A DNA stretch of 64,000 nucleotides from Anaeromyxobacter sp. Fw109-5 (GCF_000017505.1 NC_009675.1:2046001-2110000), one strand, 5' to 3'; positions 28,537 to 52,667 are shown, numbered from the stretch's first letter. Notes: generated by a model from the letters alone, not told the origin. Program-made: numbers and translations.

Positions 28537-28604
28537 CGCGCACGGCGAGGGTGGACGCGATGACGAGCCGGGTCGAGTGTGAGCGCCGCGACGGGGAGAT
28601 CGCC

Positions 28605-35064: not shown

Positions 35065-35258
35065 CGGGCTCCGCGCGCGAGCTGTGCGCCGATGTATGCG
35101 GAGCGCGGCCGTCTCGCGTTCACGGGACGGCGGTGGGTGTGGGCGCAGGGTGGGGCAGATCACGCAGCCCGGGTGCTAGCCCCCAGCCCGCAGCCGACTT
35201 CACACCCCGCTGATCGTGATCTCGCGGACTTACACGAGCCACGGCGTACCCGGGTTCG

Positions 35259-35273
35259 GGCACGCCCGTTGCT
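35259..35273 (+). promoter_or_regulatory. Sigma-54 promoter of the omcS-like gene
   Basis: GGGCACGCCCGTTGCT (35258-35273) has GG-N10-GC spacing (GG at 35259-35260, GC at 35271-35272) and matches TGGCACG-N4-TTGCW at all but the first base. The predicted start of transcription is near 35284, giving a leader of about 113 bases. An inverted repeat CCGTC...GACGG at 35109-35130 lies about 130 bases upstream, a usual position for an activator site. Confidence 0.75.
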
Positions 35274-35396: not shown

Positions 35397-36773
35397 ATGA
35401 AGTTCATGAAGCTCGCAGTCGCTGCCGTCGCGTCGTTCGCGTTCGGCAACGCCTACGCCTTCCACTCCGGCGGCGTCGCCGAGTGCGAGGGCTGCCACAC
35501 GATGCACAACTCGCTGGACGGCCAGCCGATGATCCCGGCGGACGTCATGGCGGCGAACGGCCTGGCGCAGTACGAGGCCGGCCCGTACCTGCTGCAGGGC
35601 AACCAGTCGGAGAACTGCCTCAACTGCCACCAGAACTCCAGCCAGGATCCGCTGGCCCAGGACAAGGGCCCGACCGGCTACCACATCTCCACGCAGCCGT
35701 CGCAGCTGGCGCTGGCCGGTGACACGGCGGGCGTTCCGGCAGTCCCGATGCAGATGACGCCGGGCGGCGACTTCGGCTGGATCCGCGCGGACGTGCCGTA
35801 CGCGGTCCGCGGCACGCCGGCCACCAACCACGGCAGCGCCCGTGGCCACAACATCGTCGCCCCCGGCTACGGCTACACGGCCGACCCGGTCAAGACGACG
35901 GCGCCGGGCGGCTCGTTCGTCGCGGCGAACCTGATGTGCTCGAGCTGCCACGACCCGCACGGCCGCGCCCGCGTGCTCGACTCGACCACCGCTGACGTGC
36001 AGGTCGTTCCTGCCCTCGGCGGCGCGACGGCCCCCATCTACACGTCCGGCTCCTACGGCGCGACGACGAAGCCGGGCCTCGCCATCGGCGTGTTCCGCAT
36101 CCTCGGCGGCGTGGGCTACGCGCCGAAGTCCTACAACGCGGGCGCCTTCACCGCCCCGGCGCCGGTCGCGGCCGCGCCGTCCAGCTACAACGCGTCTGAG
36201 GCGGTCTCCGAGACGGTCGTCGCGTACGGTAAGGGCATGTCCGAGTACTGCGCGAACTGCCACCCGGCGATGCTCCAGAACGGCTACGTGAGCGGCACGT
36301 CGATGCAGGTCCACCCGGCCGGCAACGGCGCGCCCCTCGGCGCGACGATCGCCGCCAACTACCTGGCGTACGTGAAGTCGGGCGACCTCTCGAAGACGGG
36401 CGCGAACTACACCTCGCTCATCCCCTTCGAGACGGGCGTCGTCGACACGGGCGCGCTCAGGCCGCTGTCGGGCCGCCTCGCGCCGGGCGCCGGCCCTGTG
36501 GCCGAGGCGACGGACAACGTCTCCTGCCTCTCCTGCCACCGCGCCCACGCGTCGGGCTTCGACTCGATGCTCCGCTTCGCGCACGAGAACGAGTTCATGA
36601 CGATCGCGGACGCCACGGGCGCCGCCGCGTTCGACACGAACGCCGCCGAGGGCAAGGTCAACCGCGGCTTCTACGGTAAGGTCGCGCAGGAGACGCAGTA
36701 CTACGGCCGTCCGGCGACGAAGTTCGCGCCGTACCAGCGCCTCCTCTGCAACAAGTGCCACGCGAAGGACTAG
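35397..36773 (+). CDS. OmcS-like hexaheme nanowire cytochrome
   Basis: 458 residues with a cleavable signal (cut after residue 21, ...NAYA). The mature protein starts FHSGGVAECEGCHTMHNS, essentially the same as my recollection of Geobacter sulfurreducens OmcS. Further shared blocks: MTPGGDFGW, GHNIVA, CSSCHDPHG, GMSEYCANCH, LSCHRAHASGFDSM and the C-terminus KFAPYQRLLCNKCHAKD. Exactly six CXXCH sites (residues 30, 74, 181, 285, 377, 451), as in OmcS. OmcS subunits polymerise into micrometre-long extracellular filaments with stacked hemes. Conservation of both termini, which form the inter-subunit contact in OmcS, favours the same assembly here. It has its own sigma-54 promoter and terminator, consistent with high-level monocistronic expression. 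It heads the block of accessory genes that follows. Confidence 0.92.
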   Translation: MKFMKLAVAAVASFAFGNAYAFHSGGVAECEGCHTMHNSLDGQPMIPADVMAANGLAQYEAGPYLLQGNQSENCLNCHQNSSQDPLAQDKGPTGYHISTQPSQLALAGDTAGVPAVPMQMTPGGDFGWIRADVPYAVRGTPATNHGSARGHNIVAPGYGYTADPVKTTAPGGSFVAANLMCSSCHDPHGRARVLDSTTADVQVVPALGGATAPIYTSGSYGATTKPGLAIGVFRILGGVGYAPKSYNAGAFTAPAPVAAAPSSYNASEAVSETVVAYGKGMSEYCANCHPAMLQNGYVSGTSMQVHPAGNGAPLGATIAANYLAYVKSGDLSKTGANYTSLIPFETGVVDTGALRPLSGRLAPGAGPVAEATDNVSCLSCHRAHASGFDSMLRFAHENEFMTIADATGAAAFDTNAAEGKVNRGFYGKVAQETQYYGRPATKFAPYQRLLCNKCHAKD

Positions 36774-36808
36774 TCTCGCGCTGGCGTAGCAGCACGGTGT
36801 GAAGGGGA

Positions 36809-36840
36809 GGGGGCCGCGCGAGCGGCCCCCTTTTCTTTTT
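36809..36840 (+). terminator. Strong Rho-independent terminator after the omcS-like gene
   Basis: GGGGGCCGC, tetraloop GCGA, GCGGCCCCC: a perfect 9-bp stem followed by TTTTCTTTTT. It should separate the cytochrome transcript from the accessory operon. Confidence 0.93.
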
Positions 36841-36911: not shown

Positions 36912-38345
36912 ATGCGACGCCCATTCACCCTCAGCGCCGCCCTCGCGGTGCTTCTCGCCACGACGGCGTGCCGTCCCGCCGTTCGGGCCACGCCTCCCCG
37001 GGCCCTGCGGGGCGACCAGGCTGAGCTGGCCGTCTACGTTCAGCCCCTGGCCGCGGGGCCGCTGGTGCTGGAGCTCGCGACGATCGCGGCCACTCGCGAG
37101 GACGGGCCGCCGGTGCCGCTGGAGCTCCACCTCGGACGCCTCTCGCCCGAGACCGCGACGCGCCAGCGGCTCGTCGCCTCCGGGCGGCTTCCGCCTGGAA
37201 GCTACACGGGGCTCGCCGTGGCGCTCCGCCGCGCCACCCTCGCGCCCAACGGTGGCACGGGGGCGGCCCTGGCCATCCCCGAGGAGCCGCTCGTCGCGCT
37301 GGTGCCGTTCGCCGTCGCGTCCGGGCGAGGCCAGGTCCTGCTCCTGTCGGTGCGGCCCGAAGCCGTCAACGCGGGGGCGGTCCTCGAGGGCTCCGCGCTC
37401 GCCGCGTATGCGCCCGACCGTCCCAGCGCGCCGCTCCTCGGCGTCTCGGCGGTCGACTACGCCGATAGCCTCCTTCTATTCGACCGTCGGGCGGGCGGCG
37501 TCGTCGCTCTCTTCCCCACGGGGCCGGAACCGCGCACGGTCGCGATCGACGCGTTCCGGCAGCGCGTATACGTGGCGAGCAGCGGCGCGAACCGCATCGA
37601 CGCGTTCGATCTCGCCACCTTCGAGACGCTCGACTCCACCCGGCTCCGCGTCGGCGATCGGCCGCTTTCGATGGCCCTCACCCCGAGCGGCGGGCTGCTG
37701 GTGGTCGCGAACCCCGGCTCGGACACCGTGAGCCTGGTCGATCCCATCGGCGGGCAGGAGCTGGAGCGCGTCTCGGTGGCGGGCGAGCCGTCGTGGGTGA
37801 CCCTCGACCGTCCCGGGTTGCGCGCCTTCGTGGCGAGCCGTCGCACCTCGACCGTCAGCATCATCACCACGGACGTCGCGCTCCTCACGTCGGGGTCCGC
37901 GGCCGTGCTGGGCTCCTTCTCCGTGGAGCCCGACCCGATCCGGCTCTTCGTCGAGCCTGCCGGCGACCGGCTCATCATCGCTTACGCCCGCACGCCGTAC
38001 GTCACCGTGCACGCCCTCCCGAGCGGAGCGATGGCGGACCGGATCTTCACCGGAGCCCCTGCCTCGGCGCTCCTGCGCGACCCGCGCAGCGGCGCCCTCG
38101 TCGTGGCGACCGCGGACGGGAAGCTTCAGCTCTACGACCCGGGAACGCTCCTCGCGACGGCCACGATCGCGTTGCCCGCGCCCGCCACGTACCTCGTCAT
38201 CGACGACGCCGAGAACGCGCTCCTCGCGCTGCTCCCCGGGCGGGGCTCCGTGGCCGTGGTGGATCTCACGGCGCGCAAGCTGCGGGGCGAGTTCGAGCTC
38301 GGGCCCGGTCCACACGACCTCGCCCTGGTGGCGGAGCGGCGCTAG
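36912..38345 (+). CDS. Beta-propeller (YVTN-type) lipoprotein
   Basis: 477 residues. Signal with lipobox LLATTAC. Residues about 35-170 form a carbohydrate-binding-like beta domain (LPPGSYTGLAVAL resembles the DUF4382-type pattern). Residues 175-475 are about seven repeated propeller blades (VYVASSGANRIDAFDLATFE, LVVANPGSDTVSLVDP and similar). No heme motif. The following barrel gene starts 3 bases after its stop, so they form an operon with the next two lipoproteins. It probably sits at the outer membrane and may cap, guide or anchor the cytochrome filament; that is inference. Confidence 0.78.
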   Translation: MRRPFTLSAALAVLLATTACRPAVRATPPRALRGDQAELAVYVQPLAAGPLVLELATIAATREDGPPVPLELHLGRLSPETATRQRLVASGRLPPGSYTGLAVALRRATLAPNGGTGAALAIPEEPLVALVPFAVASGRGQVLLLSVRPEAVNAGAVLEGSALAAYAPDRPSAPLLGVSAVDYADSLLLFDRRAGGVVALFPTGPEPRTVAIDAFRQRVYVASSGANRIDAFDLATFETLDSTRLRVGDRPLSMALTPSGGLLVVANPGSDTVSLVDPIGGQELERVSVAGEPSWVTLDRPGLRAFVASRRTSTVSIITTDVALLTSGSAAVLGSFSVEPDPIRLFVEPAGDRLIIAYARTPYVTVHALPSGAMADRIFTGAPASALLRDPRSGALVVATADGKLQLYDPGTLLATATIALPAPATYLVIDDAENALLALLPGRGSVAVVDLTARKLRGEFELGPGPHDLALVAERR

Positions 38346-38348
38346 CGG

Positions 38349-40547
38349 ATGCGAGCCCGCGTCATTCTCCGGATCGTGTGCCTGGGGGGGCTCCTCGCGC
38401 TCGGTGTCCCCGCTCGCGGAGGGGACATCAACCTGCGTTACGCGCCGGACTACCGGCTCCAGCGCACGCGGGTCCTGCGCGCCGACGGCGTGGGGTTCGA
38501 TACCGAAGGGCAAACGCTGGCCCAGCGGGTCACCCTCGGCTTGAGCCAGACCTTCACCCCCACGCTCTCGTGGGCCGGCGACGGGCTCTTCGACTGGGAC
38601 CAGTCCTGGGCCCGGGACGCCGACGATGTTTGGGTCTCCTCGGACAGCCGGCGCTGGACCCTCAACACGCGGCTCGAGCTCCGCCAGGACCCGTTCCAGA
38701 CGGGCGTCTCCTACGCCCGGCGGGACGCGCTCCTCGAGTCGACCCGCCTGGGGGAGACGCGGACCATCCGCGCGCCGATCAACGACACCTACGCGAGCTG
38801 GCTCCAGTGGAACCCGGCCGGGCTCCCGCGTCTCTCCCTGAACGCTTCGCGGGGGAACACTTACGATCCAGGAAAGGACGAGGTGGACCGGACCACGGAC
38901 GCGGCCTCGCTCGCCCTGGTGTACCAGGAACTCGAGGACTGGGATTTCCGCTACGGGTACCTCATCTCGCACGGGGTGGATCGGTTCAAGGATACGGACG
39001 CGCTGACCCAGGCGCATTCGGCGCGGGTCGGCTGGGGCGAGGACTGGCTCGACGGCCGGGTGTTCACGGCGGTCTCCTACGGAGCGGGCTACAACTCGTC
39101 GCGCCTCACCGCCGGTTCGGCGGGGGCTACCCGCGAGACGCAGCAGCGCCCGTCTACGGGGCTCTCCCGCGTCGAGGTCTTCCCGGACGAGCCCTCGCGG
39201 GTGAAGCTCGATCCAAACCCCGCCCTCGCCGACGCTGACACCGTCGTCCCCACCCAGCTCGACCTCGGCCACGCGCGCTCCACCGCACGCGACGTGGCGC
39301 CGCGCGACCTCGGCGCCCAGTTCCCCGACGACCGGCTGGAGGTCAACCTGATCCGCGTCTGGGTGGACCGGCAGCTCCCGGCCCACGTCGTCGCGGGGTT
39401 CGCCTGGGAGGCCTGGCAGAGCGACGACAACCTGGAGTGGACGCGCGTGCCGCTCGCGGGCGCGGTCAGCTTCGGGGTGTTCGACAACCGGTTCGAGATC
39501 CCCATCCAGCGGACCGGCGCGCGTTATCTCAAGGTGGTGACCCGCCCCATCACCACCGCGGTGACGACCGATCCACTTTACGCGAGCATCCTCGTCACGG
39601 AGCTCGAGTTCCTGCTCGTCGAGTTCCTCCCCTCCGGTACCACGCAGACGAGCGGGATCTCCGGCGACCTGAGCGGCTCGCTCCGCTGGGTGATCCTGCG
39701 GGAGCCGAGCCTCGCTTACAGCCTCGCCGTGCTCACCTCCCATCGAGGCGATCCCATCGACATTCGCACGGCGGTTCAGCAGTCGCTCGGCTTCCTGCGC
39801 ACGCTCGGCGGGAACGCACGGCTGTCGGCCCAGGTCTCGCGGACCGACTCCTTCGACGACCAGGGACTGCGTTCCCAGGACGGCTGGGGCGCGTCGCTGG
39901 GCGCCGACCCGCTGCCGGCCCTCTCCTGGAACCTCAGCTACTCGGGGTCGTACGCCGAGGACACGCGCGACCTCTCGAACACCACGGCCGCGTCGGTGCG
40001 CGCGGACCTGTATGAAGGCTTCTCTGCGAGCGCGAACGGGGGCCTCGCCTGGACGAGCGCCGGGACCGGACGGCAGAGCCAGTCCGCAGAGAGCAGCGCA
40101 TCCCTCAACGTGACGCCACACCGGGCGGTCAGCGCCAACGGCGTCATCACCTGGCGCTACGCGCAGGGCTGGGGCGGAGGTGCGCCCGAGAGCTCCGAAC
40201 GGGCCGGACGGGTAGACGGCACGATCTCGGTGAACCCGTTCCCGGCCCTCTATCTCTCGGCCTCGGCTGGCCGGAACCTCTTCGGCCTGGCGCCGGCCAC
40301 GACCACGGCCGTGAGCGCAGGGCTGTCGCTCTTCCGCGGCGGTGCCCTCGCCCTGCGCCTCAACGCGGGTCAGACGACCGACGCGGCGAGCCGCGTGCGC
40401 AACCGCTCGACGGGGGCCGGCCTGAGCGTGAAGCTCGGCCCAGGCCGAACGTTCGACGTGAACTCCATCTGGAGCGAGTCCCGCGCCCCCGTGGAACGGG
40501 TTCGCAGCTTCGCGCTGACCGCTGGGCTACGCCTCGTCCTACTCTAA
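38349..40547 (+). CDS. Outer-membrane beta-barrel protein with discoidin-like insertion
   Basis: 732 residues. Signal peptide of about 25 residues, then repeated amphipathic strands with alternating aromatic residues from residue 25 to the end, the pattern of a large barrel (more than 20 strands). The last residues (FALTAGLRLVLL) form a terminal strand. Between about residues 275 and 420 there is a globular segment (WEAWQSDDNLEWTRV, ARYLKVVTRP) that resembles an F5/8 C-type discoidin sandwich. The size matches porins of Geobacter porin-cytochrome conduits (about 740 residues), and the 26-heme and 16-heme cytochromes downstream could be its partners. Alternatively it is the export channel of the filament. 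No homologue is identified with certainty. Confidence 0.75.
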   Translation: MRARVILRIVCLGGLLALGVPARGGDINLRYAPDYRLQRTRVLRADGVGFDTEGQTLAQRVTLGLSQTFTPTLSWAGDGLFDWDQSWARDADDVWVSSDSRRWTLNTRLELRQDPFQTGVSYARRDALLESTRLGETRTIRAPINDTYASWLQWNPAGLPRLSLNASRGNTYDPGKDEVDRTTDAASLALVYQELEDWDFRYGYLISHGVDRFKDTDALTQAHSARVGWGEDWLDGRVFTAVSYGAGYNSSRLTAGSAGATRETQQRPSTGLSRVEVFPDEPSRVKLDPNPALADADTVVPTQLDLGHARSTARDVAPRDLGAQFPDDRLEVNLIRVWVDRQLPAHVVAGFAWEAWQSDDNLEWTRVPLAGAVSFGVFDNRFEIPIQRTGARYLKVVTRPITTAVTTDPLYASILVTELEFLLVEFLPSGTTQTSGISGDLSGSLRWVILREPSLAYSLAVLTSHRGDPIDIRTAVQQSLGFLRTLGGNARLSAQVSRTDSFDDQGLRSQDGWGASLGADPLPALSWNLSYSGSYAEDTRDLSNTTAASVRADLYEGFSASANGGLAWTSAGTGRQSQSAESSASLNVTPHRAVSANGVITWRYAQGWGGGAPESSERAGRVDGTISVNPFPALYLSASAGRNLFGLAPATTTAVSAGLSLFRGGALALRLNAGQTTDAASRVRNRSTGAGLSVKLGPGRTFDVNSIWSESRAPVERVRSFALTAGLRLVLL

Positions 40548-40566
40548 GATGCAGGGAGGAGACCCC

Positions 40567-41139
40567 TTGAGCTGCCCATCCCCTTCGCGTCTGGCCACCG
40601 TCGCCCTGCTGCTCGCTACGGCCTGCTCGTCCGGTCCTCAGCGCACCTACACCGATCCCAGCATGGACTTCGGGGCGATCCGCACGGTGGCGGTGCTGCC
40701 GTTCCAGAACCTCAGCCGAGAGCAGACGGCCAATCAGCGGGTGCGTGACGTCTTCGTCACGCTGCTGCTCGCGGCGGAGGCGGTCTATGTCGTGCCGACG
40801 GGCGAGACCGCGCGCGGGCTCGAGCAGGCGGTGGTCGCAAACCCCACCGCGCCGAGCATCGCGGAGGTGGTGAAGCTGGGCACCATCCTCAAGGCTGACG
40901 CCGTGATCACCGGGGTCGTCAAGGAGTACGGCGAGATCCGCTCCGGGACCGCGACCTCGAACGCCGTCTCGATCAGCATCCAGCTCCAGGAGGCGGGTAC
41001 CGGGAAGGTGGTCTGGTCCGGGGCCAGCACCAAGGGCGGAATCGGGTTCACGGATCGGCTGTTCGGAGGGGGAGGGGAGCCCCTGAACCGCGTCACCGAG
41101 GAAGCGGTCCGTGACATTCTCGACCAGCTCTTCCGGTAG
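40567..41139 (+). CDS. CsgG/GNA1162-like lipoprotein
   Basis: 190 residues from TTG 40567, chosen because GGGAGGAG lies just upstream; an ATG at 40549 is the alternative. Lipobox LLLATAC. The mature part has IRTVAVLPFQNLS, then VVPTGETARGLEQA, ADAVITGVVKEYG and GTGKVVWSGAST, the pattern of the GNA1162 (DUF799)/CsgG-type fold. CsgG forms the outer-membrane secretion pore for curli fibres. Start about 20 bases after the barrel stop. The downstream gene overlaps its 3' end by 29 bases. Confidence 0.78.
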   Translation: MSCPSPSRLATVALLLATACSSGPQRTYTDPSMDFGAIRTVAVLPFQNLSREQTANQRVRDVFVTLLLAAEAVYVVPTGETARGLEQAVVANPTAPSIAEVVKLGTILKADAVITGVVKEYGEIRSGTATSNAVSISIQLQEAGTGKVVWSGASTKGGIGFTDRLFGGGGEPLNRVTEEAVRDILDQLFR

Positions 41140-42280
41140 GCGCCGCAGCCTCGCGATCGGCTGGCTGGTCGCGTTGACGCTCGCGTGCTCCGGAGCTTCG
41201 CCCCAGCGAGCGCCCCTCTCCTCGCGACAGCCGGTCGCCGATCTCCCGCCCGAGGTGCCGGCAGGCGGGCGCGCCGCGCGCATCGCCCTTCTCCCGCCGC
41301 AGAACCTGACCGGCACCACCTTCGACGAGGAGGCGCTCGCCACCCGGTTCGAGCAGGCCCTGGCGCGCGCCGGCCTCGACGTGGTCTCCGGAGCGCCGGT
41401 GGACGCCTTCCTCGCGAGCCGCCGCATCCGCTTCACCGGCGGCCTCGACCGGGAGGACGCGGTCGCGGCGGGCGAGACGCTCGACGTTCGCGGCGTGCTC
41501 GTGACCACCGTGGTGCAGCGCGAGGAAGGGTCGTCGCCGCGGCTCGCCGTGCTCGCGCGGCTCGTGTCGGTGGACGATGACCCGAGCGTCTACTGGATGG
41601 ACGGGATCGCCATCTCGGGCGAGGACCACCGCGGGCTGCTCGAGCTCCGGCTGGTGCACCGCGTCGACCGGCTGGAGCGCCGAGCGTTCTCGCGGCTCGC
41701 CGGGTCGCTCGCCGAGTTCCTCGAAGGGGAGCGCACTGGCGGTCACCGCTGCAGCAGCGGACGCCGGTACCGCCCGAGCATCGTGTACCGGAACCTGGTG
41801 CCGCCGAAGGACCGAGCGGTCACCATCGCCGTGGTTCCTTTCCAGAACCGGACCCAGCGCGAGCACGCCGGAGAGGTGGCCTCGCTTCAGCTGACGCGGG
41901 CGCTCGCGGGGATTCGAGGGTACCGGGTGCTCGAGCCGGCGGTCGTCCGCGAGGAGATGCTCCGCCGGCGGATCGTCGTGCAAGAGGGAGTGTCCCGCGA
42001 GACGGTGCGGATGCTCCGGGGCGGGCTCGAGGCGGACTACGTGATCGGCGGGATGGTGACGCGCTACGACGAGGCACGGGGCGCGAAGGGGATACCGGCC
42101 GTGGACGTCACCGTCACCATGCTCGAGACGGCGACCGGACGGGTCGCCTGGCATTCACGCTCGGAAGGGCGCGGAAACGACGGAGTCGTCCTCTTCGATC
42201 TCGGGACGATCCGGAACACCGAGGAGCTTTCCTGCCGATTGCTGGCGCAGGTGGCGGACGGGCTTTCGGGGAAACGCTGA
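41111..42280 (+). CDS. Tandem-domain CsgG-like lipoprotein
   Basis: 389 residues from GTG 41111, overlapping the preceding gene. Lipobox LVALTLAC. Two copies of the same fold: residues 55-210 (ARIALLPPQNLTGTTF, VRGVLVTTVVQRE) and 235-385 (VTIAVVPFQNRTQ, LEADYVIGGMVTRYDE, ATGRVAWHSRSEG). Each copy aligns with the single-domain protein upstream. It is the last gene of the operon that starts at 36912. Either a periplasmic/outer-membrane assembly factor or part of a secretion pore for extracellular protein. The name is inferred from motifs only. Confidence 0.75.
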   Translation: MTFSTSSSGRRRSLAIGWLVALTLACSGASPQRAPLSSRQPVADLPPEVPAGGRAARIALLPPQNLTGTTFDEEALATRFEQALARAGLDVVSGAPVDAFLASRRIRFTGGLDREDAVAAGETLDVRGVLVTTVVQREEGSSPRLAVLARLVSVDDDPSVYWMDGIAISGEDHRGLLELRLVHRVDRLERRAFSRLAGSLAEFLEGERTGGHRCSSGRRYRPSIVYRNLVPPKDRAVTIAVVPFQNRTQREHAGEVASLQLTRALAGIRGYRVLEPAVVREEMLRRRIVVQEGVSRETVRMLRGGLEADYVIGGMVTRYDEARGAKGIPAVDVTVTMLETATGRVAWHSRSEGRGNDGVVLFDLGTIRNTEELSCRLLAQVADGLSGKR

Positions 42281-42308
42281 CCCAACCCATGCTGCGTCGG
42301 AAAACGGA

Positions 42309-42330
42309 GGGAACGCAAATGGTGCGTCCC
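42309..42330. promoter_or_regulatory. Inverted repeat upstream of the isomerase operon (possible activator site)
   Basis: GGGAACGCA, then AATGG, then TGCGTCCC: an almost perfect palindrome about 70-90 bases upstream of the -24 element. That is the usual distance for an NtrC-type enhancer site. Confidence 0.45.
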
Positions 42331-42400
42331 GCTCTTAGCCTACATTCCAACTTCGCCAAAGAAATTCAGCCAGTTAGGTGATTTCGTTCGCTTATCGGAA

Positions 42401-42415
42401 GGCATGCCGGATGCA
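42401..42415 (+). promoter_or_regulatory. Sigma-54 promoter of the isomerase-cytochrome operon
   Basis: AGGCATGCCGGATGCA (42400-42415) has GG at 42401-42402 and GC at 42413-42414, exactly N10, with two deviations from TGGCACG-N4-TTGCA in the inner parts. The predicted transcription start is near 42426, about 47 bases before the start codon. Confidence 0.6.
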
Positions 42416-42472
42416 ATCCCGCCCGCTGCCTCAACCACCGAAGGGTCGCTGGACCCACCTCCTGAGGACTGA

Positions 42473-44227
42473 ATGCTCTCTCGCCTGCTGCCCTGTGCCC
42501 TCGCTATCGCCGCGCCGCTGACCTGGGCGCGCGCCGATGCCCCGAAGGCCGCTGCGCCCGCACCCGCCCCGGCTGCCGCCGCAGGCGCGGGCGCGACCTC
42601 GGATTCGGCCAAGTCGCCGAACGCCGGGTCCGTGTCGATTCGCGTACGGGTTCCGCTCGCCGACGAGCGCTTCGGCCCGGTGCCGGTCGCGACGGTCGCG
42701 GACGAGGTCATCACGGTGGACGATCTTCGCGAGCTCGCCGCGATCACCCACCAGGACCGCGCGGAGGGGATGACCGGCAAGGCCGACTTCACGAAGCTCG
42801 TCGAGCGGCTCGTCGCCGTGCGGACGATCGTCGCCGAGGCGAGGGCCATCGGCCTCGACGATCTCGAGGAGGTGAAGAAGCCGATCGCCGACAACAAGGA
42901 GCGCATCCGCTTCGATCTCGTCCGCAAGCACGCGTCGAAGGACGTGACGGTCGATCCCGCCGAGGTCAAGCGTCTCTACGACGAGGCCAGACGCGAGTGG
43001 CGCATCCGCTCGGTCTTCTTCGGGCAGGAGGCCGAGGCGAAGAAGTTCACCGCGGCCCTGGCGGCCGGCGGCGAGTTCGACGCGCTCGCGAAGAAGGCGG
43101 CCGAGGACAAGGTCGCGCGGAGCGGCGAGGGTTCGCAGTGGATCCGCGTGTCCGAGATCCAGGTGAGCGTCGCGAAGGAGGTGGAGAAGCTCGCCCCCGG
43201 GAAGGCGACGGCGCCCTTGAAGGCCGGACCGGGCTGGACCGTCGTCCGGCTCGACGAGAAGCGCTCGGTCGAGGACGAGGCGCTCCGGGCCAAGATCGAG
43301 TCGACGGTCCGCGGCGAGGCCGTCGCGAAGGCGCTCCAGGCCTACTACGCGAAGCTCAAGAAGCAGCTCGTCCGCATCGACACGAAGCTCCTCCGCGCCG
43401 TGAGCTTCGACAAGCCGAAGGGTGGCTTCGAGGCGCTCAGGAAGGACCGCCGCGTCGTCGCCCGGGTCGAGGGTGCGAAGCCGGTGACCCTTGGTGAGGT
43501 CGCGGAATCCCTCGCGCGCCCCCTCTTCCACGGCGTCGCTCCGGCGCAGGAGCAGGGCAAGCTGGACAAGCAGAAGCAGGACGCGCTCGACGCGCTCGTG
43601 TCGAAGCGGCTCGTCACGATCGAGGCGGAGCGGCTCCGGCTCGACGACACGCCGGAGGCGAAGCGCCGGGCCGCCGAGTTCGAGACGAACCTCCTCTTCA
43701 CCACGTTCATCGATCGCGTCGTCATCCCCGAGGTGAAGGTGACCGAGGCGGAGGATCGGGCCGCGTACGAGAAGCGCAAGGACGAGTTCAAGTACCCGGC
43801 GTTCTACCGGCTCGAGGGGCTGGCCTTCCAGGACGCGAAGAACGCGCAGAAGGCCCTGAAGAGCCTGCAGGGCGGTACGGACTTCAAGTGGCTCCGGTCG
43901 AACAGCGACGGCCTCGTGCCCGAGGAGGAGCAGGTGTTCCGCCTCGACGCCACGCAGACGATCAGCGCGCGCGCCATGCCGGAGGAGTTCCGCAAGGCGC
44001 TGGCGGGGGCCCAGGACGGCGACGTCCGGCTCGTGGCCTCCAAGGACCAGCACTACGTCGTGCGGGTCGCGCAGTTCACCCCCGAGAGCGTGCGGCCGTT
44101 CGAGGAGGTCCGCCCGGAAATCCACAAGGACGTGTTCGGGACTGCGATCGCCCGCGCGCTCGACGGATGGGTGGAGAAGCTGCGCGACGCGCACGAGGTC
44201 AACGTCTACCTCGTCACCTCGCCGTGA
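42473..44227 (+). CDS. Periplasmic SurA/PpiC-type peptidyl-prolyl isomerase
   Basis: 584 residues. Signal peptide (cut near residue 21), a Pro/Ala linker (residues 23-50), a SurA-N-like helical region (VADEVITVDDLRELAA, LVERLVAVRTIVAEAR) and two parvulin-like modules: residues about 175-265 (IRSVFFGQEAEAKKF, AGGEFDALAKKAAED) and 440-545 (YRLEGLAFQDAKNAQKAL, DFKWLRSNSDG). The Shine-Dalgarno GAGGA precedes the ATG. It leads an operon of five with two cytochromes and two propellers. Periplasmic isomerases of this kind accompany OmcS/OmcE-type cytochromes in other genomes, so the likely client is the Pro-rich nanowire subunit. Whether both parvulin sites are active cannot be judged. Confidence 0.83.
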   Translation: MLSRLLPCALAIAAPLTWARADAPKAAAPAPAPAAAAGAGATSDSAKSPNAGSVSIRVRVPLADERFGPVPVATVADEVITVDDLRELAAITHQDRAEGMTGKADFTKLVERLVAVRTIVAEARAIGLDDLEEVKKPIADNKERIRFDLVRKHASKDVTVDPAEVKRLYDEARREWRIRSVFFGQEAEAKKFTAALAAGGEFDALAKKAAEDKVARSGEGSQWIRVSEIQVSVAKEVEKLAPGKATAPLKAGPGWTVVRLDEKRSVEDEALRAKIESTVRGEAVAKALQAYYAKLKKQLVRIDTKLLRAVSFDKPKGGFEALRKDRRVVARVEGAKPVTLGEVAESLARPLFHGVAPAQEQGKLDKQKQDALDALVSKRLVTIEAERLRLDDTPEAKRRAAEFETNLLFTTFIDRVVIPEVKVTEAEDRAAYEKRKDEFKYPAFYRLEGLAFQDAKNAQKALKSLQGGTDFKWLRSNSDGLVPEEEQVFRLDATQTISARAMPEEFRKALAGAQDGDVRLVASKDQHYVVRVAQFTPESVRPFEEVRPEIHKDVFGTAIARALDGWVEKLRDAHEVNVYLVTSP

Positions 44228-44241
44228 GACGGAGCGGAGAC

Positions 44242-46218
44242 ATGGCGATGAATCCCAGGATCCGGATCCCCGTCCTCGTCGCTGCGCTCGCCGTGGGCGC
44301 GGCCCTCGCGACGCCCTCGGTGGCCACCGCCGCGGCGAAGTTCGCCAAGCGCGACTGCTACGACTGCCACAAGGACTTCGCGAAGCGCGTCGGCGGCCTC
44401 TCGAACGTGCACCCCGCGGTGAAGGCGCAGAAGTGCGAGGACTGCCACCTGCGGCACGGCGCGGTGCCGCGCCTCCTGCTCAAGAAGAACGGCAACGCCC
44501 TCTGCGCCGAGTGCCATGCCTCCGCGAAGATCGGCACCGACAAGAAGGTCGTCCACCCGGTCGCCGGGAAGGGCACGTGCGTCACGTGCCACGATCCGCA
44601 CGGCGGCAACGACCGCGCCATGATGAAGAAGGCGGGCGCTGAGGGGTGCTACGCCTGCCACGATCGCAAGCCCTTCGAGCGCCAGGCGGTCCACGCCGTC
44701 CTGAAGCAGAAGGGCTGCAACGCGTGCCACGCCGGGCACGGCTCCGACGAGCGGCACATCCTGCGCGCGTCGGAGGACAAGCTCTGCGCGAGCTGTCACG
44801 CCGCGAACGACGGCTTCAAGAAGAAGCACGGCGGCTACCCGGTCGCGACCTGCACGCGCTGCCACGATCCCCACTCCGCCCCCGGCGCCAAGCTCCTCAA
44901 GGCCGTCGTCCACGATCCGGTGAAGAGCGCCTCGTGCTCGGACTGCCACGTCGCCGCGACCTCCCCGAAGCCGTTCGCGCTGGCCCAGAAGGGCGGGGCA
45001 GTCTGCGCGTCCTGCCACGACCAGAAGGACGTCACCGGCGGCAAGAAGGTGGTCCACTCTCCCGTGAAGGACGGCGAGTGCGTCGCCTGCCACGATCCCC
45101 ACGCGTCCGAGCAGAAGGCTCTCCTCGCACGCCCGGGCGCCAAGACCTGCGAGCAGTGCCACCCCGCGCAGATGGGCATCCGCACGGTCGTGCACAAGCC
45201 GATCGCGGGTGAGCGCGCGTGCCTCACCTGCCACGGCGCCCACGCCGCGGGCGAGGCGAAGCTGCTCGACAAGAAGGAGCCGGAGCTCTGCTACGGCTGC
45301 CACGCGAAGACCTCCGCGCAGCAGAAGGCGAAGGTCGCCCACCAGCCGTTCAAGTCGGGCGACTGCTCGTCCTGTCACGACCCCCACGGCTCCACGGTGG
45401 CGGGCATGCTGAAGGCCCGCCCCGACCGCGTCTGCTACGGCTGCCACGTGGACGCCGAGGCGAGGTTCGTGAAGTCGAGCACCCACGCGCCCGTGCGAGA
45501 GGGGCAATGCACGGCCTGCCACCTCGCGCACGGCGGCGAGAGCAAGGGGCTCCTCAAGGCGCGCGGCGCGGACCTGTGCAAGTCTTGCCACGCGGACCTC
45601 GTGAAGAAGTCCACGACCAAGTCGTCGGACGGCAGCCCCGTCCACGCTCCGTTCGCCAAGGGTGACTGCCTCGGCTGCCACGATCCCCACGGCTCCAACG
45701 TGAAGGGGATGCTGGTCGCGGACGAGCGCGCCATGTGCGTCCGGTGCCACGAGAAGGAGGCGAAGGCGGCGGGGGCGGCCAAGAGCGTCCACGCGCCGTT
45801 CTCCGGCGGCGAGTGCTCGAAGTGCCACAACGCCCACGCCGCGCCGCTGAAGAACCTGCTGCTCGCGAAGAGCCCGGACCTCTGCCTGTCCTGCCACAAG
45901 GACATCAAGGAGCGGCTCTCGAAGAAGACGATGCACTCGCCGGCGGAGGACTGCATGAGCTGCCACCGGCCGCACTCGGGCACGCAGCCGTTCCTCGTCG
46001 ATCAGGCGCCGAACGAGCTGTGCGGCCAGTGCCACGAGCCCACGGACGGCTTCACGAAGGCCCACCTCGGCATCGAGCCGAAGGCGATGGCCTGCGCGAG
46101 CTGCCACGACCCGCACGCCTCGGACGATCCGAAGTTCTTCAAGGAACGCCAGCACGCGCCCTTCGGCTCGCGCAAGTGCGACGCCTGCCACGCCGCGACG
46201 ATGGAGAAGAAGAAGTGA
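44242..46218 (+). CDS. 26-heme periplasmic cytochrome c (doubled CXXCH type)
   Basis: 658 residues from ATG 44242 (GGAG upstream; 14 bases after the isomerase stop). Cleavable signal without a lipobox (SVATAAAKF). By eye count 26 CXXCH motifs, arranged as pairs: an LCxxCH followed about 35 residues later by a CxxCHDPH, the Paired_CXXCH / doubled-CXXCH pattern. The protein is very lysine-rich. It is probably periplasmic, or fills the barrel protein as the electron conduit of a porin-cytochrome complex, passing electrons to the OmcS-like filament. Confidence 0.9.
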   Translation: MAMNPRIRIPVLVAALAVGAALATPSVATAAAKFAKRDCYDCHKDFAKRVGGLSNVHPAVKAQKCEDCHLRHGAVPRLLLKKNGNALCAECHASAKIGTDKKVVHPVAGKGTCVTCHDPHGGNDRAMMKKAGAEGCYACHDRKPFERQAVHAVLKQKGCNACHAGHGSDERHILRASEDKLCASCHAANDGFKKKHGGYPVATCTRCHDPHSAPGAKLLKAVVHDPVKSASCSDCHVAATSPKPFALAQKGGAVCASCHDQKDVTGGKKVVHSPVKDGECVACHDPHASEQKALLARPGAKTCEQCHPAQMGIRTVVHKPIAGERACLTCHGAHAAGEAKLLDKKEPELCYGCHAKTSAQQKAKVAHQPFKSGDCSSCHDPHGSTVAGMLKARPDRVCYGCHVDAEARFVKSSTHAPVREGQCTACHLAHGGESKGLLKARGADLCKSCHADLVKKSTTKSSDGSPVHAPFAKGDCLGCHDPHGSNVKGMLVADERAMCVRCHEKEAKAAGAAKSVHAPFSGGECSKCHNAHAAPLKNLLLAKSPDLCLSCHKDIKERLSKKTMHSPAEDCMSCHRPHSGTQPFLVDQAPNELCGQCHEPTDGFTKAHLGIEPKAMACASCHDPHASDDPKFFKERQHAPFGSRKCDACHAATMEKKK

Positions 46219-46226
46219 GTGGCCCC

Positions 46227-47504
46227 ATGCGCACGATCCCCGTCCTCCTCGCGCTCTCCGTCGCGCTGGGCTCAGCCCCGGCGAGCGCCGCTCCCCGCTC
46301 CGCCAAGCCGAACCACCGGTTGAAGACAGGCGCGGAGGGCAAGCTCTGCGTGGACTGTCACACCGAGTTCGCGAAGGAGCTCGCGAAGCCCGTGATCCAC
46401 AGCCCGGTCCGCGCCCGGGACTGCGTCGGGTGCCACGACCCGCACGCGTCGAAGCTGCCGGGCCTGCTCGCCGGCGCGCCGAACGACATCTGCGCGAGCT
46501 GCCACGGCGAGGTCGTCCCCGCCGGCGCGACGAGCGCCCACAAGCCGGCGGTCGAGCGGAAGTGCACGACCTGCCACGATCCGCACGCCTCCGAGACCAA
46601 GGGCGTGCTGGTGAAGCCCACGCTCGAGCTGTGCGGCTCCTGCCACAAGCCGCTCGTCGAGCGGATCGCCAAGGTCAAGCGGAAGCACGCGCCCGTGCAG
46701 AACGGCTGCGCGAGCTGCCACGAGTCCCACGCCTCCGCGAAGGCGCCGTCGATCCTCAAGGCGGCGGTCCCGGCGCTCTGCATCGGCTGCCACAAGACGG
46801 ACAAGCCGATCTTCCTGAAGCAGCACCTCGGGTACAAGGTGGGCGCGGCCGACTGCACCACCTGCCACGATCCGCACGGCTCCGACACGAAGGGCATGCT
46901 CTTCGACCGGGTGCACTCGCCGGTGGCGCGCGGCATGTGCTCTCAATGCCACGAGGCCGCGGGCTCGACGAACCAGTTCGCCACCAAGGCCAAGGGCGCC
47001 GAGCTCTGCAAGACCTGCCACGGGCCGCTGGTCACCAAGATGCTCTCCAAGAACCGGGTCCACTCGCCGGTCCTCGGCGGAGAGGACGACTGCCTGAAGT
47101 GCCACAACCCCCACGCATCGCAGCAGAAGGCGCTCCTCGAGCGGCCGATCCGCGACCTCTGCGGCTCCTGCCACGTGGACACGATGCAGCGCGAGGCGCG
47201 GGCGTTCTCCCGCCACGAGCCGGTGCGCGATGGTGACTGCGCCGCCTGCCACGATCCGCACGGCACCGACGGACCGCTGCTGCTCACCAACGAGAACATC
47301 GTCGCGTTGTGCAAGGGCTGCCACGACTGGGGCGCGCACTCCTCGCACCCCCTCGGCGAGAACTTCGTCGATCCCCGCAATCCGAACCTCACGCTCGACT
47401 GCCTGAGCTGCCATCGCTCGCACGGCACCGAGTACAAGAAGCTCATGCCCTTCCCGAAGCAGAGCGACCTCTGCACGACCTGCCACGCGAAGTACCGGAG
47501 GTGA
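46227..47504 (+). CDS. 16-heme periplasmic cytochrome c (doubled CXXCH type)
   Basis: 425 residues from ATG 46227; a GTG at 46215 overlapping the previous stop is possible. Signal peptide (SAPASAAPRSAKPNH), no lipobox. About 16 CXXCH motifs in the same paired arrangement as the 26-heme protein (CxxCHDPHAS, LCGSCHKPLV), so the two are paralogues differing in repeat number. Stop and next start overlap (TGATG). Confidence 0.9.
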   Translation: MRTIPVLLALSVALGSAPASAAPRSAKPNHRLKTGAEGKLCVDCHTEFAKELAKPVIHSPVRARDCVGCHDPHASKLPGLLAGAPNDICASCHGEVVPAGATSAHKPAVERKCTTCHDPHASETKGVLVKPTLELCGSCHKPLVERIAKVKRKHAPVQNGCASCHESHASAKAPSILKAAVPALCIGCHKTDKPIFLKQHLGYKVGAADCTTCHDPHGSDTKGMLFDRVHSPVARGMCSQCHEAAGSTNQFATKAKGAELCKTCHGPLVTKMLSKNRVHSPVLGGEDDCLKCHNPHASQQKALLERPIRDLCGSCHVDTMQREARAFSRHEPVRDGDCAACHDPHGTDGPLLLTNENIVALCKGCHDWGAHSSHPLGENFVDPRNPNLTLDCLSCHRSHGTEYKKLMPFPKQSDLCTTCHAKYRR

Positions 47505-48400
47505 TGACCGTGAAGCGCTCCAGCTTTGGGATCCTCGCCGCCGTCCTCGCCTCCCTCGCCGGGACGGCCGCTCGCGCCGAGGGCGTCGTATTTCGATTCT
47601 CCGGCGCGCTGTACGCCGACGACAAGAAGGTGAAGCTCCGCGCCCCCGAGGGTGTGGGCTGCGCGGACGATCGCGTCGTCGTCGCCGACAGCGGCAACGC
47701 GCGCCTCGTCGTGTACCGGCTGTCCGAGGGCGGCGTGGTCTCCCCCGGCAATCCCGTGAAGGTCGACGCGATGAAGTACCCCACGCGCGTGGTCCTCGAC
47801 GGCAGCAAGACCGCCTGGTTCCTGGACCGCAAGGAGCGCAAGATCGGGCGGGTGGCCGCCGACGGCGCCTTCAAGGGCTGGCTCGTTCCGAAGGACGTGC
47901 CAGGCTTCCTCCCGACGAGCTTCGTGCTCGCGAAGGGCGGTGGCGTCCTCGCGCTGGACGGGTCTGGCCGCGCGGTGCTCGACGTCGGAGAGGACGGCGC
48001 CGTGGCCCGGCGCCTGCCCCTGCCCGAGGGGCAGTTCACGGACCTCGCGGTGGACGCGGCGGGCACGATCTTCACGATCGACGCCGTGACCGCCACGGTG
48101 TTTACCGCGGGCAAGGGCGACGCGGCCTTCAAGGCGCTGACGAAGTCGCTCAAGGAGTCGATGAGCTTCCCCATCCAGCTCGTCTCGAACGAGCGCGGCC
48201 GCTTCTACGTGGTGGACCAGAACGGGATGGGCGTGGTGGTGCTCGGTAACGACGGGAGCTACCAGGGGCGGCAGCTCACCCTCGGCTGGTCGGAGGGGAA
48301 CCTCTACTACCCCTCGCAGCTCTGCGTGACCGGGAAGGGTCTCGCGGCGATCGCGGACCGCGGCAACCACCGCGTCCAGGTCTTCACGACCGTGGAGTGA
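47504..48400 (+). CDS. Secreted NHL-type beta-propeller protein
   Basis: 298 residues with a cleavable signal (LASLAGTAARA). Repeated propeller blades (VVVADSGNARLVVYRL, FLDRKERKIGRV, IADRGNHRVQVF) give about six blades of NHL type. No heme. Start overlaps the stop of the 16-heme gene, and its own stop overlaps the next gene (GTGA), so translation is coupled. NHL proteins next to omcS-type genes may act as filament caps or scaffolds. Inference. Confidence 0.85.
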   Translation: MTVKRSSFGILAAVLASLAGTAARAEGVVFRFSGALYADDKKVKLRAPEGVGCADDRVVVADSGNARLVVYRLSEGGVVSPGNPVKVDAMKYPTRVVLDGSKTAWFLDRKERKIGRVAADGAFKGWLVPKDVPGFLPTSFVLAKGGGVLALDGSGRAVLDVGEDGAVARRLPLPEGQFTDLAVDAAGTIFTIDAVTATVFTAGKGDAAFKALTKSLKESMSFPIQLVSNERGRFYVVDQNGMGVVVLGNDGSYQGRQLTLGWSEGNLYYPSQLCVTGKGLAAIADRGNHRVQVFTTVE

Positions 48401-49323
48401 GCCCGCCGTTGGTCTCTCTCGCCCTCGCGCTCGCGCTCGCCGCCGTCACGCCGCGCATGGTCCCGGCGCCGGACCGGGGAGAGGTGCGGGTCCGGTATCT
48501 CTTCTCGCTCACGGCCCACACCGGCAAGACCACGCTCGACGTCCCGGGGCTCTCGTGGGACCCGGAGGCTCGCGAGCTGTTCGTGCTGTTCGCGGGCGAC
48601 CTCCGGGTCTTCAACGCGTCGGGGATGGAGATCTACCGGTTCAATCGGCAGCCGGAGCTCGGCTGGTTGCAGTCGGTGACGCCGCTCCCAGGCGGCGACC
48701 TGCTGCTGTGGACCGTCAAGGAAGGTCAGTCGAGGTTCGTCCGCTGCGACTTCCGCGGCCGCCCGCTCGGCGAGTTCACGCTGAGCGGCGTCCCCCCCGA
48801 CCTCGTCGGCATCGGGCGCATCGGTCCGTTTCGCGCCGGCGATCGCCTCTACTTTCCCGAGGAGACGGGGAAGCGGCTCGCGGTGACCTCGCTGGAGGGC
48901 GAGTTCATCGCGGTGCGGGACCTCACCCTCAAGTTCGGCGACGAAGAGGACAAGCTCGAGAAGGAAGACCTCGACCGGGGGGGATTCTGGATCGACGAGA
49001 AGGAGAACGTCTACTTCTCGTTCCCCCTGATCTTCCACGTCGCCGTGCTCGGGCCCGACGGAAAGCAGCGCGGCTTCGGTCAGAAGGGCAGCACGGTCGG
49101 CAAGTTCAACGTCATCGGAAACCTGGCGGCGGACGAGGACGGCTACGTCTACGTCGCGGACGTGCTGAAATCGACCGTGATGGTGTTCAACTCCGAGTTC
49201 CGCTACGTCGGCCAGGTGGCCGGGATCCATCGCCCGGCGGGCATCCTCTACGGCGGCGGCAAGCTCTTCGTGGCGCAGGGCCGCGGCGCCGGTGTGGCAG
49301 TCTTCGAGGTGCTTCGGAACTGA
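48397..49323 (+). CDS. Secreted NHL-type beta-propeller protein
   Basis: 308 residues from GTG 48397, overlapping the previous stop. Signal-like N-terminus (VSLALALALAAVTPRM). Blades include LSWDPEARELFVLFAG, NVYFSFPLIFHVAVLG and YVYVADVLKSTVMVFNSE. Only weakly similar to the preceding propeller, so they are probably two different subunits. Last gene of the isomerase operon. Confidence 0.83.
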   Translation: MSPPLVSLALALALAAVTPRMVPAPDRGEVRVRYLFSLTAHTGKTTLDVPGLSWDPEARELFVLFAGDLRVFNASGMEIYRFNRQPELGWLQSVTPLPGGDLLLWTVKEGQSRFVRCDFRGRPLGEFTLSGVPPDLVGIGRIGPFRAGDRLYFPEETGKRLAVTSLEGEFIAVRDLTLKFGDEEDKLEKEDLDRGGFWIDEKENVYFSFPLIFHVAVLGPDGKQRGFGQKGSTVGKFNVIGNLAADEDGYVYVADVLKSTVMVFNSEFRYVGQVAGIHRPAGILYGGGKLFVAQGRGAGVAVFEVLRN

Positions 49324-49338: not shown

Positions 49339-51243
49339 TCACCGCATGCCGCGGGACGCCATGAACGCGGCGAGCTGACCTGCCCGATCGCTGCCGCCGC
49401 GCTGGAGCGCCGCCAGCTGCGCGCTCGCGCCGGCGGCGTTCCCCAGCAGCACGTGCGCGACGCCGAGGTTGAAGCGCGCCTCCGGGCTGGCCTGCACGAC
49501 CTGCGGCGCCGATTCCAGCAGCCGGAGCGTCTCGTCGGGACGGCCGAGAGAGTTCAGCGCACCCGAGAGGTTCGCGTAGGCATCGCGGTAACCAGGGTCC
49601 AGCTCGATCGCCCTCTGCGAGAGCGCGGCGGCCTCCGGCGCGCGCCCTTCCACCAGGAGCAGGCGCCCCAGGTTCACGTAGGTCTCCGCGTGATCGGGCT
49701 TGGAGCGGAGCGCCAGCTCGAGCCACTGCGCCGCCTCGTCCGTGCGTCCGAGCCGCTCCAGGTGGACCGCGAGGTTGTTCATCCCGTCCACGTGGTCCGG
49801 CGAGATGCGGACCACCGCGCGGAAGTGCTCGAGCGCCTCCTCGTCGCGCCCGAGCTTGCGGAGCGCGTGGGCGTAGTTCGTGTGCGGCCGCGTCTTGTTC
49901 GGCGCCTTCGCGACGGCGTCGCCCCACAGCGCGAGCTCGTCCTGCCAGACGAGGTTGCGTGCGAACGTCGCCGCGCCGAGCGCGATCGCCAGCACCGCTG
50001 CCGTCGCGACGGTGACCCGGTCCGGGACGGAGTACCGCCGCGCCAGCCAGAGCGCGGCCGTGACGGCGCCGATGAAGAGGCCCGCGGACGGCAGGTAGAC
50101 GCGGTGCTCGAACATCACGTCCCTGATCGGGATGACGCTCGACTCGACGGAGAGCGCGAGGAAGAACCAGAGGATCCCGAACCCCACGACCCGGCCGCTG
50201 GGATCGAGACGTCCCGCCGCGCCCGGGCGGGAGCGCCACAGCAGGTGAGCGGCCACCGCGAGGAGACCCCCGACGACCACGAGCCCGAGCAGCACGCGTG
50301 GCTCGAGCAACGATCGCGCGATCGGCACGTCGTGATCGAACGTCAGCCCGACCGGAGCGATCAGGAGCCGGAGGTAGCTCGCCACGACCGGCAGCTGCGT
50401 CATCAGGTACTCGACCCGGGACAGCTCGGAGTTCCGCGTGGCTCCTTCCAGGCGCTGGACCGCAGCGCCGACGTCCGCGGTCACTCCCAGCATCGTGAGC
50501 GGGATGATCGCGAGCGTCGCGAGGATCGGCGCGAGCGCGAGGGCGGTCTTCTTGCGGAGAGGCCCGAAGAAGACGAGCTCGTATCCGGCGATCGCGAGCG
50601 GAAGCGTGAAGGCGATCTCCTTCGTTCGCATGGCGGCGACGACCGACGCGAGCACGAGCCCGTAGCTCGCGGCGCTCCAGGCGGGCGCGAGCGGATGGGT
50701 CTCCTGCCGCAGGCGCCACCACGCGTACAGCACGACGGCGAGCAGGTAGAACATCGTCGCGAGCGACGCGAACCGCTGGACCACGTACGTGACCGCGTTC
50801 GTCTGGAGCGGGTGCGCGACGAAGAGCGCCGCGGCGGCGAACGCGACGATGCGCGACGACCCGGCGAGCTTCGAGTCCCGCACGCCGGGCGTCCGGAAGG
50901 TGAGGATCGCGAGCGCGTAGACCAGCAACGCGTTCGCGAGGTGCACGCACAGGTTGACGACGTGGTACCCGGCCGGATCCAGGCCGCCTGCGGCGTAGTT
51001 CAGCGCGAAGCTCAGGTATCCGAGGTAGCGATTCGGCGCTGCCGCGTAGGTGCCGCCGCCTGGCAGGTAATGTCGCAGATCGCGGATGAGGACGTTCTCG
51101 ACGATGCTCGGGACGTCGTCGAAGACGAACGCGGCGCCGAACGAGTTCGAGTAGGAGAGGAGGCCGAGGACCGTGACGGCGAGCAGCGGGAGCCAGTGCC
51201 CCTCGGCTCCGGGCGTCTTCGGTTCAGGGGCCGTCCGTTTCAT
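49339..51243 (-). CDS. TMTC-like membrane glycosyltransferase with TPR repeats
   Basis: 634 residues from ATG 51243. About 10-11 membrane helices (residues 20-410). The loop motif FGAAFVFDDVPSIVEN after the first helix is the DD signature of TMTC/PMT-like GT-C enzymes, and FEHRVYLPSAG near residue 370 is also typical. Residues about 430-625 are five or six TPR repeats (DGMNNLAVHLERLGRTDEAA, ETYVNLGRLLLVEGRAPEAA). Eukaryotic TMTCs are O-mannosyltransferases of secreted proteins; bacterial members are mostly uncharacterised. Convergent with the nanowire operon. It may glycosylate exported proteins, possibly cytochromes. Confidence 0.78.
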   Translation of the reverse strand: MKRTAPEPKTPGAEGHWLPLLAVTVLGLLSYSNSFGAAFVFDDVPSIVENVLIRDLRHYLPGGGTYAAAPNRYLGYLSFALNYAAGGLDPAGYHVVNLCVHLANALLVYALAILTFRTPGVRDSKLAGSSRIVAFAAAALFVAHPLQTNAVTYVVQRFASLATMFYLLAVVLYAWWRLRQETHPLAPAWSAASYGLVLASVVAAMRTKEIAFTLPLAIAGYELVFFGPLRKKTALALAPILATLAIIPLTMLGVTADVGAAVQRLEGATRNSELSRVEYLMTQLPVVASYLRLLIAPVGLTFDHDVPIARSLLEPRVLLGLVVVGGLLAVAAHLLWRSRPGAAGRLDPSGRVVGFGILWFFLALSVESSVIPIRDVMFEHRVYLPSAGLFIGAVTAALWLARRYSVPDRVTVATAAVLAIALGAATFARNLVWQDELALWGDAVAKAPNKTRPHTNYAHALRKLGRDEEALEHFRAVVRISPDHVDGMNNLAVHLERLGRTDEAAQWLELALRSKPDHAETYVNLGRLLLVEGRAPEAAALSQRAIELDPGYRDAYANLSGALNSLGRPDETLRLLESAPQVVQASPEARFNLGVAHVLLGNAAGASAQLAALQRGGSDRAGQLAAFMASRGMR

Positions 51244-51364
51244 TCGCGTCGCATCCGGTGAGGGAGAGAGCTGGGCCGCGAACGATATCACGCGCCCATG
51301 GAGCCCGGACACTCGCCCGCACCCCTGCCGGACGAACGAAACTGCGGCGCTGCTTGGAAAGAAC

Positions 51365-52300: not shown

Positions 52301-52667
52301 GGTGTTTGGCTCCTTTCGATGCTCAATCTCGCTCAATCCGAGGCGTTTCGAAATGCGGACGAATGCCCAATCTCGCAGGAAAAAGTCCGGGGGGAGGGGC
52401 GCGCCGCGCCGGAGCGGGGCATGTCCGCGGACCGGAGCGGAGCGGCGGCGCGGTCCCGAGGGTCGCGGGTGCGGAGTCCGCGCCGCGAGGCGGGCGCCCA
52501 CCGGAGGCCAGGTCCGGCGAGCTCCGGAGAGGACGTCGGGCGAATTCCCGATGCGGCCGGGTGGCGCAGTTTCTGGCGCCGTTCGGCCCGTGCTTGACGC
52601 GGATGGGGGAGCCTGGTCCGCTGGTGGCTCGACAGGCTCACCACGAGGGGACGAGAAAAGCCACCGC
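52301..52667. other. Divergent intergenic region
   Basis: 367 bases between paralogue B and the YfhO gene. It contains the Shine-Dalgarno and possible promoter of paralogue B and one REP-like repeat near the right end. No credible small gene. Confidence 0.5.
52621..52647. repeat. REP-like palindromic repeat, copy 3
   Basis: CTGGTGGCTCGACAGG followed by CTCACCACGAG: a variant of the same element, located 20 bases before the YfhO start codon. Confidence 0.75.

Follow-up and report, generated by a model that had tools for sequence, protein, structure and literature searches.

The 64,000-nucleotide stretch of DNA analyzed here (the window; 71% GC, from a complete genome of 5,277,990 bp) very probably carries the osc-type system with which an Anaeromyxobacter-type soil bacterium folds the multiheme cytochrome OmcS, the subunit of electricity-conducting wires, and exports it across the outer membrane, an identification made through the published annotations of osc genes. 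The first-pass annotation had described a nanowire folding and export locus beside an OmcS gene in two transcription units, and this core reading is consistent with all of the tests that we ran.

Gene content of the locus

All nine genes that had been placed after the OmcS-like gene are present in the order described and on the plus strand (36912 to 49323; Table 1), and the upstream OmcS-like gene (35397 to 36773) is part of the unit. We refer to the genes as D (propeller lipoprotein), E (barrel), F (lipF), G (lipG), H (isomerase), I (26-heme cytochrome), J (16-heme cytochrome), and K and L (propellers). Gaps measure 138 nt between the OmcS gene and D, 3 nt for D-E, 1 nt for E-F, 192 nt for G-H, 14 nt for H-I, and 8 nt for I-J, while F and G overlap by 29 nt, J and K by 1 nt, and K and L by 4 nt. 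The CXXCH motif occurs 6 times in the OmcS-type protein, 26 times in I, and 16 times in J.

Table 1. Features of the osc-type locus, in window coordinates
Feature	Position	Strand	Details
Sigma-54-type (-24/-12) promoter element GGGCACGCCCGTTGCT	35258..35273	+	139 nt 5' of OmcS-like gene; score 20.5 of 21.5
OmcS-type hexaheme cytochrome, filament subunit, oscC/omcS position	35397..36773	+	phmmer to PDB 6ef8
Intrinsic terminator-like hairpin and U-run, between OmcS and machinery genes	36803..36840	+	15-bp stem, -30 kcal/mol, tail TTTTCTTTTT
Beta-propeller lipoprotein, OscD-like	36912..38345	+	YVTN/PQQ-type propeller matches; lipobox ATTAC
Large outer-membrane beta-barrel, OscE-like	38349..40547	+	AlphaFold2 model; inserted domain at about residues 275-415
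lipF, PelC/GNA1162-type lipoprotein, OscF-like	40549..41139	+	Pfam PF05643, 2.6e-9; PelC profile match
lipG, lipoprotein with two tandem PelC/TolB-N/CsgG-type domains, OscG-like	41111..42280	+	Model and fold matches; 29-nt overlap with lipF
Sigma-54-type element AGGCATGCCGGATGCA	42400..42415	+	73 nt 5' of isomerase gene; score 18 of 21.5
Periplasmic parvulin-type prolyl isomerase/chaperone, OscH-like	42473..44227	+	Rotamase_2, 1.3e-25
26-heme cytochrome, OscI-like	44242..46218	+	26 CXXCH
16-heme cytochrome, OscJ-like	46227..47504	+	16 CXXCH
NHL propeller, OscK-like	47504..48400	+	NHL repeats, 4.3e-14
Second NHL-type propeller (gene L)	48397..49323	+	Weak NHL-type match (ScyF, 8e-6)

The OmcS-type cytochrome

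A phmmer search aligned the OmcS-type protein with the solved OmcS (PDB 6ef8) across its whole mature length (residues 22 to 458, E = 1.4e-113), with 54.4% identity. The OmcS structure has 12 histidine ligands, 11 from its own subunit and 1 from its neighbor (PMC6584659). The window protein has the features that mark OmcS filament cytochromes, namely six CXXCH motifs and the 12 histidine ligands, the neighbor-donated one included; exactly 12 histidine columns are conserved in at least 27 of 28 aligned rows, and the window protein retains 12 of 12. The neighbor-donated ligand, which we take to be H16 of the mature protein, is among those conserved. Because all 12 OmcS ligand histidines are kept, the set needed for polymerization is predicted from the alignment to be intact.

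Barrel and lipoproteins

The AlphaFold2 model of the 732-residue barrel protein is an all-beta barrel of about 28 strands with one inserted domain (pLDDT 86, pTM 0.64), and the protein is without a match in Pfam or NCBIfam. A fold search with this model returned no specific relative, since an usher, MtrB (Z 15.2), porins, LptD, and TonB receptors were all matched at about Z 14 to 16. The MtrB family (MtrB_PioB, PF11854) has no Pfam match in the barrel and none genome-wide at E <= 0.01, and a profile comparison of the barrel with lipG indicated that the two are unrelated.

The lipobox of propeller lipoprotein D (ATTAC) is kept in 17 of 18 cases, and the lipobox cysteine of lipF is invariant. 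The 196-residue lipF matches the GNA1162-like family (PF05643, E = 2.6e-9) and LpoB in Pfam, and as a profile it matches GNA1162 (6e-7) and PelC (PDB 9h80, 5e-5). The 389-residue lipG is modeled (pLDDT 77) as two tandem copies of the alpha/beta unit that is found in lipF; its C-terminal half matches the subunit of the PelC dodecamer at Z 16.7 (rmsd 2.3, 138 residues aligned), and its N-terminal half matches FlgT best (Z 13.3), with the LPHT ring, GNA1162, CsgG, and TolB at Z 11 to 13 (CsgG at about 12). Membership in the CsgG family (PF03783) was rejected: lipG scored 13.5 of 20.8 bits, below the curated cut-off, lipF had no match, and the sole match in a scan of the whole genome lies outside the cluster. 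The earlier label "CsgG-like" was therefore loose, as the resemblance to PelC is stronger both for lipF (by profile) and for the C-terminal half of lipG (by fold), and the two lipoproteins are closer to PelC, the ring lipoprotein of an outer-membrane exporter, than to CsgG. PelC functions as a ring beneath the PelB barrel, so a barrel together with PelC-type lipoproteins makes a good model of an exporter; by this analogy, export through the barrel and lipoprotein rings would be the best model for the locus.

Isomerase, large cytochromes, and propellers

Gene H encodes a PPIC-type rotamase by Pfam, with SurA, PrsA, and CBF2 among its PDB profile matches. The two large cytochromes match the Paired_CXXCH family (E = 4.5e-148 and 1.5e-94); the 26-heme orthologs in the clusters are 47 to 55% identical with 26 hemes, and the count of the 16-heme protein is likewise constant among orthologs. 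It is plausible that these two proteins feed electrons to the filament, and the capping that the first-pass annotation also proposed would fall to the propellers. Homologs of both were not expressed in metal-respiring Anaeromyxobacter dehalogenans (PMC5539420), and what cytochrome filaments do physiologically is disputed (PMC11077965). The NHL propeller K is found throughout 17 clusters (in L083 the fetched region ends within it), and the second propeller, L, has two placements, either after K as in the window or 5' of OmcS.

Conservation and distribution

We fetched 20-kb regions around relatives and mapped the families in them. The order OmcS-D-E-F-G-H-I-J-K is kept in 17 of 17 further complete clusters from three families of Myxococcota; L083 is exceptional in that its OmcS gene lies 5 kb distant. 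Heme counts of 6, 26, and 16 are invariant in these clusters, save for one locus of the same genus (L041, 11555 to 13523) in which the 26-heme gene is split over two frames with 7 and 19 hemes, by frameshift or assembly error. Because the order repeats in every other cluster and the F/G overlap is exactly 29 nt in 12 of these 17, the arrangement is far beyond chance.

Of 195 Myxococcota genomes, 17 matched the barrel profile and 20 matched OmcS; 16 had both and 174 had neither. The single genome with a barrel and no OmcS has it at a contig edge, and the four with OmcS and no barrel comprise two contig-end fragments and two weak partial matches. This is the co-occurrence check that the first-pass annotation had proposed, and its core reading withstands the refuting outcome named there, since the cluster reaches beyond the genus and tracks OmcS (16 of the 17 barrel genomes). 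A restriction of the cluster to one genus was thereby rejected.

Two clusters per genome were seen in genomes of two genera. The D to K proteins of the window had been expected to group with those of congeners and instead form a separate deep branch (support of nearby branches is low, 0.56 and 0.25, which makes its exact position tentative); the cluster is therefore often duplicated, lost, or exchanged, as has likewise been published for omcS in Geobacter. A search of genome contigs with the 26-heme protein returned one unrelated 21-heme locus (L032), from a phylum represented by four genomes, and viral and plasmid collections yielded no OmcS. Large cytochromes of 23 to 42 hemes that are related to the 26-heme protein occur outside complete osc clusters in L042, L043, L044, and L045.

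Promoter and terminator elements

A sigma-54-type element is present 5' of 12 of 18 clusters (9 of 12 lineages), with 1.05 expected from dinucleotide shuffles, and a second is found in 13 of 17 orthologous G-H gaps (8 of 12 lineages; 0.52 expected from dinucleotide shuffles), where the window element is the lowest-scoring of the set. A scan for sigma-70 promoters found none. A strong hairpin follows OmcS in 17 of 18 loci (all but L083), mostly with a U-run (z scores of -1.8 to -6.4); the standard terminator scan missed it, probably because G-U pairs extend the stem into the U-run, and it was revealed by folding. The conserved elements 5' of the cluster and in the G-H gap argue for two regulated units, and the proposal of two operons is thus supported by the element in the 192-nt gap together with the hairpin after OmcS. 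The position of the hairpin suggests a terminator that keeps the subunit commoner than the machinery.

Some 8 kb downstream, on the plus strand (57182 to 60060), lie genes for a sensor histidine kinase with one CXXCH motif and an NtrC-type sigma-54 response regulator, and in Geobacter a kinase/sigma-54 regulator pair (GSU2507/GSU2506) adjoins omcS. The pair in the window may control its sigma-54 elements.

Neighboring genes and a glycosylation lead

The convergent neighbor of the cluster (49339 to 51312, minus strand) encodes a multi-span membrane protein with a TPR tail. Among congeners with a mapped cluster, 11 of 20 homologs of this protein, the window gene counted, lie within 25 kb of osc, compared with 0.26 expected; in the wider family, three genomes (G041, G042, and G047) add further linked cases, and some genomes without the cluster also carry homologs. 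A match to TMTC O-mannosyltransferases is weak and below the cut-off (E = 0.31 and 0.08), and an FVFDD motif is conserved in the family. Together, the weak TMTC match and the conserved motif suggest that the protein is a candidate GT-C glycosyltransferase, which we offer as a lead and not as a result. OmcS and OmcE wires carry glycosylation (PMC9473688). A broader scenario, in which the osc exporter would be a PelBC-like translocon turned from polysaccharide to heme-protein export, with a TMTC-like membrane glycosyltransferase (49339 to 51312 and its homologs) coating the OmcS wire in sugar and insulating it, strikes us as unlikely.

Other genes around the cluster were also recorded. Membrane proteins with C-terminal YfhO-type matches, possibly glycosyltransferases, are encoded on both flanks (30609 to 33041, minus strand; 52413 to 54962, plus strand). 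Giant cytochromes of about 36, 41, and 15 CXXCH motifs lie upstream (14658 to 30575, plus strand), and an MFS-spermidine synthase-type protein is encoded amid cytochrome genes (20363 to 23389, plus strand); in Geobacter sulfurreducens, the spermidine synthase gene GSU2502 sits between omcT and oscC. A lipoprotein cytochrome with nine hemes and a fibronectin-like domain is encoded just 5' of OmcS (33278 to 34990, plus strand), and its relatives, 43 to 45% identical, adjoin the osc clusters of L033, L034, L036, and L037.

Discussion

In the mechanism that we propose, sigma-54-dependent promoters would drive the OmcS unit and the isomerase/cytochrome unit, and the terminator 3' of OmcS would leave the subunit in excess over the machinery. 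OmcS would pass to the periplasm and be loaded with heme, with the prolyl isomerase folding and holding it, and the two PelC-type lipoproteins would act as ring-like adaptors below the large barrel that steer subunits through it. Outside the cell the subunits would join head to tail, each giving one histidine to a heme of the next, and the propeller lipoprotein would influence filament form. This scheme combines features seen directly here (gene content, order, conservation, and co-occurrence; homology and ligands of OmcS; the lipG fold; and promoter and terminator conservation) with roles for D, E/F/G, and H that are carried over from work in Geobacter, and with ring assembly, control of stoichiometry, and electron feeding as inferred elements. 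The putative function of the cluster as a whole likewise rests on Geobacter genetics, with D to K likened to OscD to OscK by their descriptions.

We regard it as improbable that the locus is instead a porin-cytochrome conduit, in which the barrel would enclose part of a multiheme cytochrome that spans the outer membrane and would have no export function, the 26- and 16-heme proteins would supply electrons, and OmcS would be merely the outer acceptor. An OmcKL conduit has been proposed for syntrophic sulfate reducers (Murali et al.), the barrel is about the size of MtrB and has it among its fold matches, and large periplasmic multihemes are encoded within the same operon. However, the MtrB match ties with those to usher, porin, and LptD, the genome yielded no barrel of the MtrB family, and the genes grouped with that of the barrel are those of OmcS and the PelC-type lipoproteins, whereas the cytochrome genes can lie behind a promoter of their own. 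The prolyl isomerase and the paired ring-type lipoproteins would also be superfluous to a conduit, and Geobacter genetics, as relayed by papers citing that work, assign secretion to OscE/F/G.

A refinement of the export reading would let the exporter stay at the filament base as an electrical socket, with the 26- and 16-heme proteins docking in the emptied barrel. That export-type and electron-carrier genes stay strictly linked, in a single order, across 17 clusters speaks for such a mixed machine, but separate promoters suggest that its two parts could be produced independently, and we hold it to be possible though doubtful. Export of some other cargo, such as polysaccharide in the manner of PelBC, with OmcS as a passenger, would agree with the PelC similarity of both lipoproteins and with the glycosyltransferase-like genes nearby; it is nonetheless very hard to credit given the near-perfect co-occurrence with OmcS, its fixed adjacency, and a cluster in which no polysaccharide synthase was found.

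Read as an osc-type exporter, the locus and its relatives mean that a phylum other than that of Geobacter has kept the OmcS assembly cluster whole in several of its families, heme counts and gene overlaps included. The natural variants, including some genomes with two clusters, provide material for dissecting export, the kinship with PelC offers a picture of the exporter that can be tested, and a model of regulation follows from the conservation of the sigma-54 elements and the terminator. Surface glycosylation of OmcS has been reported (PMC9473688), and the linked gene for the TPR membrane protein is a candidate to encode the enzyme involved.

Comparison with known systems

The first-pass annotation stated that no complete export machinery for such filaments had been defined, which is out of date, as the osc (omcS-companion) cluster of G. 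sulfurreducens presents, by published annotation, the corresponding genes in an identical order. Shen et al. reportedly describe a prolyl-isomerase chaperone OscH, a channel-like OscEFG, and a beta-propeller-like OscD. According to the portions of PMC13194489 and PMC12977616 that cite Shen et al. 2025, the cluster spans GSU2501-GSU2493, with OscH assigned to OmcS folding, OscE/F/G to secretion, and OscD to morphology. Published annotations list GSU2501 (OmcS-like oscC), GSU3586 (YVTN propeller), GSU2499, GSU2497 (lipoprotein), and GSU2495/2494 (cytochromes), and the Geobacter eight-gene block always lies 3' of a GSU2501-type gene. Matched through these annotations, the window shares the OmcS-type hexaheme protein, propeller, barrel or channel, lipoproteins, isomerase, two cytochromes, and propeller, with an adjacent OmcS/OscC-type gene upstream and a downstream block in the published order. 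It differs in that a lone OmcS-type gene takes the place of what in Geobacter is often a trio of omcS, omcT, and oscC, and in its extra second NHL propeller.

The isomerase/26-heme/16-heme/propeller core was described as an operon of SEEP-SRB1, Geobacter, and Anaeromyxobacter by Skennerton et al. 2017 (PMC5539420), and the OmcKL operon was described in PMC10553843. These operons have the same four core genes and heme numbers, and Anaeromyxobacter is a named carrier, but those papers draw no link to filament export and the barrel and PelC-like genes fall outside their core set. The PelB-PelC exopolysaccharide exporter (PDB 9h80, 5t10, and 5t0z) likewise pairs small PelC-fold outer-membrane lipoproteins with a barrel, whereas here the cargo would be a heme protein in place of a polysaccharide, one of the lipoproteins is duplicated in tandem, and the barrel showed no match to PelB. 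Curli CsgG shares the broad alpha/beta superfamily fold and exports an extracellular fiber subunit, but lipG falls below its family cut-off and the window cluster has a separate barrel protein. The locus, real and conserved, is very probably a further member of a known system and not a new one.
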